Source: Mesosutterella porci (GTDB lineage Bacteria > Pseudomonadota > Gammaproteobacteria > Burkholderiales > Burkholderiaceae_F). Taken from it: 64,000 bases of DNA. Shown in pieces: positions 40,245-41,858 of the stretch (positions within the stretch are counted from its first letter, which is position 1; every line of letters starts with the position of its first letter). The stretch covers positions 62,001 through 126,000 of the forward strand of contig NZ_JAKNCT010000009.1 of NCBI RefSeq assembly GCF_022134585.1, written 5' to 3'. The notes below the pieces were generated by a model. That model was not told the DNA's origin. It did not search any database and was given only the letters and a program-made list of their open reading frames with translations. A program made the translations under genes and the position numbers.

Positions 40245-40448
40245 ATGATGGAAAAGAAAATTGATGAAAAGAAGGGGCTTGCCCATGACTCGCTCGCCGC
40301 GCTCGCGGTGAGGCGCTACGGGCTTTCCTCCCGAGCCCGGCAGACCTGCAGGGCGTTCTCCGACAGCGGCCGCGACAACTACCGCGACATCGCCTGGCGC
40401 GAGGCGGTCAGAGGGCTCGACGACTTTATGAAAGAACGCGCGCTCTGA
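40245..40448 (+). CDS. Small Arg/Lys-rich protein of unknown function (67 aa)
   Basis: ATG (two in tandem) with GAAGGT about 9 nt upstream and a strong terminator after the stop. The product is charged (basic residues 22-45) with no membrane span or metal motif: MEKKIDEKKGLAHDSL, RYGLSSRARQTCRAFSDSG, DIAWREAVRGLDDFMKERAL. Codon use is like the genome. Family unknown. Confidence 0.5.
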   Translation: MMEKKIDEKKGLAHDSLAALAVRRYGLSSRARQTCRAFSDSGRDNYRDIAWREAVRGLDDFMKERAL

Positions 40449-40491: not shown

Positions 40492-40531
40492 AAGGCGGCT
40501 TCGCCCCGAAAAAGGGCCGGGCCGCCTTTTT
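40492..40531 (+). terminator. Terminator immediately preceding the group II intron
   Basis: AAGGCGGC (40492-40499) pairs with GCCGCCTT (40521-40528), with CCCC..GGG pairing in the loop and a T-run to 40531. The intron begins five bases later. Confidence 0.8.
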
Positions 40532-40535
40532 GCTG

Positions 40536-41205
40536 GTGCGCCCAGCAGCGCACGTGTGACCAGTGGTGAAAGTCCACCGTCCGCCCGATCGAGGGAAGGA
40601 CTAGCGACTCGGCAGAGTCAGGGAGGTAACAAACTGATGAAGAAAGCCGACAGCAAAACGTCAGCCTGACGAACAGGAACTGGATATGAGGCGGCGACTC
40701 CGGGAGAGCAGGCCACATTCTGTTAACCCCATATCGATACGGAAGGAGCCGTCGTAGATCCAGCAGGCAGGACGCAAAGCGCACGTGTGAGACCTGGGGA
40801 GATCCTTGACGATGCCGCAGGGCTGCCGCGGTCGAGAGGCCAAGGCATATAGACAAGGAAGTCAGCAGAGGCCGTAGTAGGCGGAAGCGCCGAAGGGCCG
40901 AATTTGAACTTGTAAGTAGAGCGTACAGCTCTCCCGAACCCGGCGACAGCAGCTGTAAAAGTCGAACGATAGGAAGTAGATCGCCTCCGGCGGCAATGGA
41001 CGGAATTCGAAAGCCCTCCACATGCGGCAAGCGTTCGACAACAGCTTCTTCAAGCGGATGGGGCTTTTCAGCGCCCTCGAGATGCAGTAAGCCCGCCTCT
41101 TACGTTTGAAAACCGAAAACCGCCGGATGCCGAACGGCATGTCCGCAGCCCTCACTGGGACAGCGGTGTAGGAGGGAGTGACCGTGAGGTCACTCTCTAC
41201 CCGAT
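40536..41205 (+). mobile_element. Degenerate group IIC intron, about 670 nt, reverse-transcriptase gene mostly deleted
   Basis: 5' end GTGCGCCCAGC followed by GTGGTGAAAGTCCAC, the usual intron start. The domain III-like block GAAGTCAGCAGAGGCCGTAG and domain V ACCGCCGGATGCCGAACGG..CATGTCCG closely follow the group IIC pattern, with a CGC triad at 41121-41123. Domain VI is the long hairpin GGGAGTGACC-gtga-GGTCACTC, and the 3' end is CTACCCGAT. Insertion right after a terminator is the known habit of class C introns. The protein gene is reduced to its last codons. Domain V is interrupted by about 17 extra bases after 41145. Confidence 0.85.
40980..41090 (+). pseudogene. Remnant of the intron-encoded reverse transcriptase/maturase (C-terminal tail)
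   Basis: In-frame stretch ending at TAA 41088-41090 and reading ...NSKALHMRQAFDNSFFKRMGL..., which resembles the conserved C-terminal end of group II intron proteins. An in-frame stop just upstream (40977-40979) and the absence of any RT motif show that the rest is gone. Confidence 0.55.
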
Positions 41206-41309: not shown

Positions 41310-41858
41310 ATGTCCAAAGCGAGCGTTTTCTTTGCCGACGGGTTTGAGGAGATTGAGGCCCTCACGGCGGTGGACCTGCTGCGCCGGGGTGGCGTGCAGG
41401 TGGACATGGTCTCGGTGGGAGAAGGGCTTGAGCGCACGGGAGCGCACGGCGTGAAGGTGCTCTGCGAGCACACGCTCGCCCAGGCGCGCTGGGACTCGGC
41501 CGACATGCTCGTCCTTCCGGGGGGCTGGCCCGGCGCGGAGAATCTCTGCCGCTCGGAGCCCCTTCGCGCGAAGCTGCTGGAGTTTGCGGCCGATCCCCGG
41601 CGCTGGATCGGGGCGATCTGCGCCGCACCCTACGTGCTCGGCTCCCTGGGGCTGCTGCGGGGGCGCCGCGCGACCTGCTACCCGGGCTTCGAGGAAAAGC
41701 TTGAGGGCGCAGTGGCCACCGGCGCCCGGGTGGAGCGGGACGGCCGCATCATCACGGGCCGGGGTCCGGGAGCTGCCACGGAGTTCGCGCTCGCGCTGCT
41801 TGAGGCGCTCGAAGGCGGGCAGAAAGCCGGGGAAGTGCGCGACGGTCTCACGCTTTAG
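41310..41858 (+). CDS. DJ-1/PfpI (YajL-type) family protein
   Basis: 182 aa; ATG with GGGGGGTAAGG upstream. Glutamine-amidotransferase-like fold: FFADGFEEIEALTAVDLLRRGG with conserved Glu, nucleophile elbow AICAAPYVLGSLGLL, and the LPGGWPGAENL loop. Members act on oxidised or glycated proteins or as chaperones. Convergent with the Crp/Fnr regulator gene, with only 36 nt between the stops. Confidence 0.92.
   Translation: MSKASVFFADGFEEIEALTAVDLLRRGGVQVDMVSVGEGLERTGAHGVKVLCEHTLAQARWDSADMLVLPGGWPGAENLCRSEPLRAKLLEFAADPRRWIGAICAAPYVLGSLGLLRGRRATCYPGFEEKLEGAVATGARVERDGRIITGRGPGAATEFALALLEALEGGQKAGEVRDGLTL

Follow-up and report, generated by a model that had tools for sequence, protein, structure and literature searches.

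A hairpin-split domain V in group IIC introns of the Sutterellaceae, with a degraded copy in Mesosutterella porci

In the 64,000-nucleotide stretch of Mesosutterella porci DNA analysed here (the window), we identified an ORF-deleted member of a Sutterellaceae clade of group IIC introns from gut bacteria. Domain V (DV) of this clade is split by an extra hairpin, and with high probability its introns can still splice. In group II introns the metal-binding active site is formed by DV, which is generally regarded as a hairpin close to invariant. A wider reading, at a probability of roughly 0.55, is that the clade consists of active, retrotransposing bacterial introns in which the triad helix of DV is separated from the helix with the metal bulge and the triad pair is G-C, i.e. 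the U2/U6 architecture in one RNA, and that the hairpin makes a new functional contact. Genomes, contigs and loci are labelled G, C and L, respectively; G000 is the Mesosutterella genome to which the window belongs.

The initial annotation had recognised a group IIC intron targeted to a terminator, and both points hold. In a covariance-model search of the window, the two Rfam models of domains I-III, RF02001 (group-II-D1D4-3; 99.1 bits, E=5e-19) and RF01998 (group-II-D1D4-1; 48.9 bits, E=9e-6), both matched above the gathering score (coordinates in Table 1). An uninterrupted empty site was found in G001, a genome of the same genus (..gcctttttgctg|cccggcctttcgagg..), where the joined window flanks match at 87% identity; because G001 has these flanks as a continuous stretch, the ends of the element can be placed exactly. 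The intron at 40536 is most simply an insertion that postdates the split of the window and G001 lineages. Its first nucleotide follows the T-run of the terminator (40527-40531) after a gap of 4 nt, a T-run likewise precedes the intron in 10/10 G000 copies with a 5' flank that could be read, and clade members in other genomes also sit directly after terminators. The G000 copies have a common 5' end, GTGCGCCC, and a common 3' end, CCCGAT; a branch-point A is predicted at position 41199. Of the two neighbours, the one that precedes the terminator is a 67-residue ORF with no match in Pfam (40245-40448), and the one beyond the intron encodes a DJ-1/PfpI family protein (41310-41858).

Table 1. Features of the intron copy and its insertion site, in window coordinates
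Feature	Position	Strand	Evidence
Group IIC (class C) intron, ORF-deleted copy, 670 nt	40536..41205	+	Rfam, sibling copies, exact empty site in G001
Intrinsic terminator, GC stem + T5, insertion target	40494..40531	+	Sequence
Intron 5' end GTGCG (GUGYG)	40536..40540	+	Sequence; identical start in all 5'-complete copies
Domain I core	40620..40787	+	Rfam RF02001
Domains II/III	40824..40898	+	Rfam RF01998
Maturase ORF deletion junction at 11-bp near-repeat GGAATyCGAAA	41002..41012	+	Alignment with L017/L021
RT/maturase ORF remnant, last 28 codons + stop	41004..41090	+	Alignment with intact 414-aa ORF of L021
7-bp tandem duplication GAAAACC x2, start of DV	41108..41121	+	Alignment; not in aligned siblings
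Domain V (DV)	41119..41167	+	Alignment with insert-free class C DVs
Catalytic triad CGC and partner GCG	41121-41123 and 41163-41165, within DV	+	Same alignment
Hairpin inserted in DV 3' strand, 17 nt in window copy	41146..41162	+	Copies, three Sutterellaceae genera, covariation
Domain VI + 3' end (..CCCGAT)	41168..41205	+	Sequence, conserved among copies

Past retrotransposition in this genome, also proposed initially, is borne out by about 14 further copies in G000; about 14 intron 5' ends and 11 3' ends were counted, many of them at contig breaks. A genome search for an intact copy able to act in trans found one in G000, L021 (C1:72871-74772), which is full-length and has an open RT/maturase ORF of 414 residues. 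The encoded protein contains RVT_1 and GIIM domains and scores 372.7 bits against TIGR04416 (cut-off 300); an endonuclease domain was not found in it. Another copy, C12:20327-22231, is likewise full-length, with a disrupted ORF. At L028 (G000:C1:236306-236827) the copy begins at an internal GGTGCGCCCCGCGCGCAC directly after a terminator, and the resemblance of this sequence to the intron 5' end suggests either a deletion between near-repeats or a cryptic 5' end. In addition, a 30-nt relic of an intron 5' end follows a terminator at the same site in two genomes (G000:C22:47717-47746 and G001:C1:1224078-1224107). The relic is evidently an old insertion, mostly deleted, and since G000 and G001 have it in common, the presence of the intron family in the genus is not recent.

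The window copy is a degraded, ORF-less, non-autonomous member of the hairpin clade. According to the alignment, its ORF was lost through a deletion of ~1.2 kb between two GGAATyCGAAA copies, both of which are present in the full-length copy. The initial annotation was right that the maturase is lost, but the remnant amounts to 28 in-frame codons plus a stop rather than to about 36 codons. Its diagnosis of decay stands in part: judged by comparison with the siblings, the true lesions are the ORF deletion, the 7-bp GAAAACC duplication and a DV insert that is 2 nt shorter than in the siblings (17 vs 19 nt), and the DV segment itself is not among them. This copy would depend on a maturase supplied in trans, from the intact ORF at G000:C1:72984-74225, and the damage may be too great for splicing.

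Three other ORF-less copies in G000, of 460-467 nt, are L022, L023 and L024 (C4:66335-66802, C27:131003-131476 and C5:35280-35746, respectively). They are located at three different terminators and have an identical deletion junction, GGCCGTA|TGCAGTAAG, almost without microhomology. The simplest reading is a single deletion followed by mobilisation in trans, which suggests a non-autonomous sub-family. The C5 copy has several substitutions in common with the intact C1 copy, so that recombination is possible in its case. G064 has an ORF-less copy of its own, of 698 nt. The ORF-less TeI3 introns of Thermosynechococcus are similar in having a single deletion junction, many sites and intact relatives in the same genome (PMC2882425); in contrast to these, G000 has three copies with the shared junction, the introns are of class C, and the deletion also takes out the 3' part of domain III.

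In all G000 copies with a 3' end, a segment usually of 19 nt is present in DV between GTCCG and GCGGT. Its position in the 3' strand of DV is precisely where the triad partner (GCG) would otherwise adjoin the strand of the distal helix (GUCCG). The initial annotation had noticed an interruption of about 17 bases at this point and took it for a lesion that disables splicing; the interruption exists, but it can no longer be regarded as disabling, since full-length copies in G000 and in other genomes carry a covarying hairpin there. An RT search combined with a split-DV pattern identified the insert in nine genomes from three Sutterellaceae genera (G000, G002 of the same genus, G034, G060, G063, G064, G066, G069 and G070), whereas DV is continuous (..GTCCGGTGGTGTG..) in class C relatives from Clostridium, Alicyclobacillus and Bacteriovoracaceae. 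Within the clade, neither the distal DV nor the triad strand has changed, apart from the middle triad pair: the hairpin introns have G-C, and those insert-free relatives that were read have G.U.

The inserts clearly differ in sequence (AGCCCUCACUGGGGCU, GGCCCAAUCACGGGGCC, GCCAUUUCACUGAUUGGC, GGCCUUUUCACUGGAAGGUU, AGCCUACUUCACUGGUAGGUU, AGCCCGUGUCACUGGCGGGUU, GCUCAGCACUGAUUGAGC), yet their potential to form a hairpin is retained. Over four stem pairs, 28 of 28 cells are paired, compared to a shuffled mean of 78%, with arms picked by eye, a choice that favours pairing. Double changes occur in three of the four pairs, and the covariation score is 0.80 vs 0.34, a value as high being reached in 0/500 shuffles. 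Nine of the eleven inserts folded (window copy and L021 not among them) form hairpins more stable than letter shuffles (p<0.05). The stem of L021, the sole intact-ORF copy of G000, is weakened by a C.C mismatch. The comparative data show that the DV segment is not decay, but a clade-wide hairpin that has been kept by compensatory changes and copied to new terminators. A degenerative insertion that kills the ribozyme would fit with DV being the most conserved group II intron domain, and with the failure of the Rfam model RF00029 on the hairpin DV. Such an origin is nevertheless extremely improbable, considering that the segment is found in all copies, including the full-length copy with an intact ORF, and in three genera, with a covarying stem and in near-identical recent copies; at the family level it is refuted by the presence of hairpin copies at many independent sites.

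Family tree analysis of the RT (31 rows) shows the hairpin-bearing introns to be monophyletic (100/99), beside insert-free Sutterellaceae introns, the insert-free status of the neighbouring rows being based on rows other than L071 and L090, in which DV was not seen. For the insert-free sibling in G070, its 105 C-terminal residues gave no settled placement in the tree. The RT dN/dS is about 0.08-0.16 between species. In G066, three copies with 2 to 7 differences in about 1906 nt are found at three terminators, all with the hairpin. Because reverse splicing requires DV and these copies are near-identical, the hairpin was most likely already part of the element when it moved; we infer catalysis by the hairpin-bearing DV from this mobility. 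Alternatively, the hairpin DV could be dead, and splicing could proceed through the canonical DV of another intron in trans, as insert-free class C introns are also present in G070 and G063. However, an insert-free class C DV was not detected, using the same pattern, in G000, G002, G060, G064 and G066, the last of which nonetheless has recent copies, and we consider splicing through a second intron very improbable.

Another class C clade of the Sutterellaceae (L080 and L091 in G029, L081 in G035, L084 in G008; RT identity about 43%, tree support 100/99) shows, beyond the 3' end of the RT ORF, a non-canonical DV of the form CCGCC..hairpin (covarying stem, GNRA loop)..CCUACCAGAYCGGUACGG..GGCGG, which folds as a three-way junction and is missed by RF00029. 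Here a three-way DV of a comparable kind may have arisen separately.

RF00029, the model of the canonical uninterrupted DV/DVI, gave no match at gathering in the window and none at E<=10 in clade members; in G070 it scores the insert-free sibling at 45.9 bits and misses the hairpin copy. Rfam searches also found no second DV elsewhere in the hairpin introns, even at E=10. Probably, the hairpin introns were previously hidden because the Rfam DV model misses them. As their DV is otherwise that of class C, we file them as a variant that departs in the uninterrupted DV alone. The split-DV pattern, which is strict and may let rarer variants escape, was not found outside the Sutterellaceae in 399 genomes of the order and 299 of the phylum, save for one unrelated chance match, nor was a split DV found in IMG/VR. 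Pattern matches in G053, G055, G056 and G621 were judged to be GC-rich unrelated sequence lacking a distal DV, and were set aside. The open-licence literature yielded no precedents for DV insertions, or for group II introns in Sutterella. Insert-free class C introns occur at high copy number, with 11 DV matches in G070 and 20 in G063, many at contig ends. In G070, a single hairpin copy is found beside the 11 insert-free matches, which have an otherwise identical distal DV; since the insert-free sibling thrives there, introns of this kind can do without the hairpin.

Of the 10 insert-bearing DVs folded, 8 have as their minimum free energy (MFE) structure a three-way junction of triad helix, distal helix with a 2-nt bulge, and extra hairpin; the remaining two, from L021 and the window copy, have other MFE folds, the canonical fold being possible as a suboptimal one. 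In most clade members, the MFE fold leaves the bulge unpaired. In agreement with the MFE folds, the alignment places the DV break between the triad helix and the ISL-like helix in all clade members. We propose that in this junction the triad helix would stack coaxially on the distal helix with its bulge, keeping the canonical contacts, with the extra hairpin directed outward. The ribozyme would therefore forward- and reverse-splice although one strand of its catalytic helix is interrupted, as it is in U2/U6, and the hairpin loop would probably touch either the maturase or a different region of the intron.

A covarying RNA partner of the hairpin loop was not found. One candidate, CAGUG near the 5' end of the Mesosutterella intron, lacks conservation in the rest of the clade. 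Another, GGUGAAAG in domain I, has the potential to pair with UCAC; it is invariant, and for that reason this pairing is beyond the reach of covariation. The hairpin could also be a harmless passenger without a contact of its own, if DV tolerates a bulged helix and the stem only averts misfolding by an unpaired 20-nt loop. The variation between species in stem length (4-8 bp) and linkers, as well as the insert-free siblings in G070, would be in line with this, whereas the CAC core of the loop (usually UCACUG) is kept in all distinct inserts despite their rewritten stems, and we therefore regard a mere passenger as possible but rather doubtful. Conservation of the loop above the stem is typical for a protein site, and group IIC introns depend strongly on protein (PMC10190682). 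Another possible role of the hairpin, chiefly beyond the ribozyme core, is to give the maturase an additional anchor or a host factor a handle; as DV sits within the RNA core, we rate this as unlikely, with protein contact a candidate.

Known bacterial class C/IIC introns (O. iheyensis, E. rectale; RT relatives in Clostridium and Alicyclobacillus) share with the Sutterellaceae clade the RF02001/RF01998 domains I-III, the CGC triad, an RT and maturase without detected endonuclease domain, insertion after terminators, and GUGYG..AU ends. They differ in having an uninterrupted DV and a triad G.U, the triad G of group II introns being paired as a G-U wobble (PMC3669008), where the Sutterellaceae clade has a 3' strand split by a hairpin, and G-C. 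Another conserved, clade-specific extra stem-loop of mobile introns is the domain VII 3' extension of Bacillus class B introns (PMC3261151, PMC9294222). Unlike the DV hairpin, it lies past domain VI and outside the catalytic helix. The U2/U6 pair of the human splicing machinery also has a catalytic helix broken between the triad helix (Ib) and the ISL, and a G-C in the triad. The U6 G pairs with the U2 C in helix Ib. This C is U2-C22 (PMC4081067). That the spliceosomal helix is divided into Ib and ISL was called a 'perplexing' difference from group II introns by Zimmerly and Semper (PMC4424553). In U2/U6, however, the triad partner is a second RNA, whereas both strands belong to one RNA in the Sutterellaceae intron, with a hairpin occupying the gap. 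We consider the parallel an analogy of architecture, not of descent, and presumably convergent.

Since DV serves surveys as a detection mark for introns (PMC8919778; see the caveat in PMC4424553), the implication is that bacterial introns are undercounted by DV-based surveys. A mobile bacterial intron with a broken DV like that of U2/U6, its catalysis deduced from mobility, would be new. The hairpin at the foot of DV suggests that the active site can become discontinuous, a step needed for the transition from DV to U2/U6, and the hairpin clade offers a natural, cloneable system for testing the tolerance of such a break.
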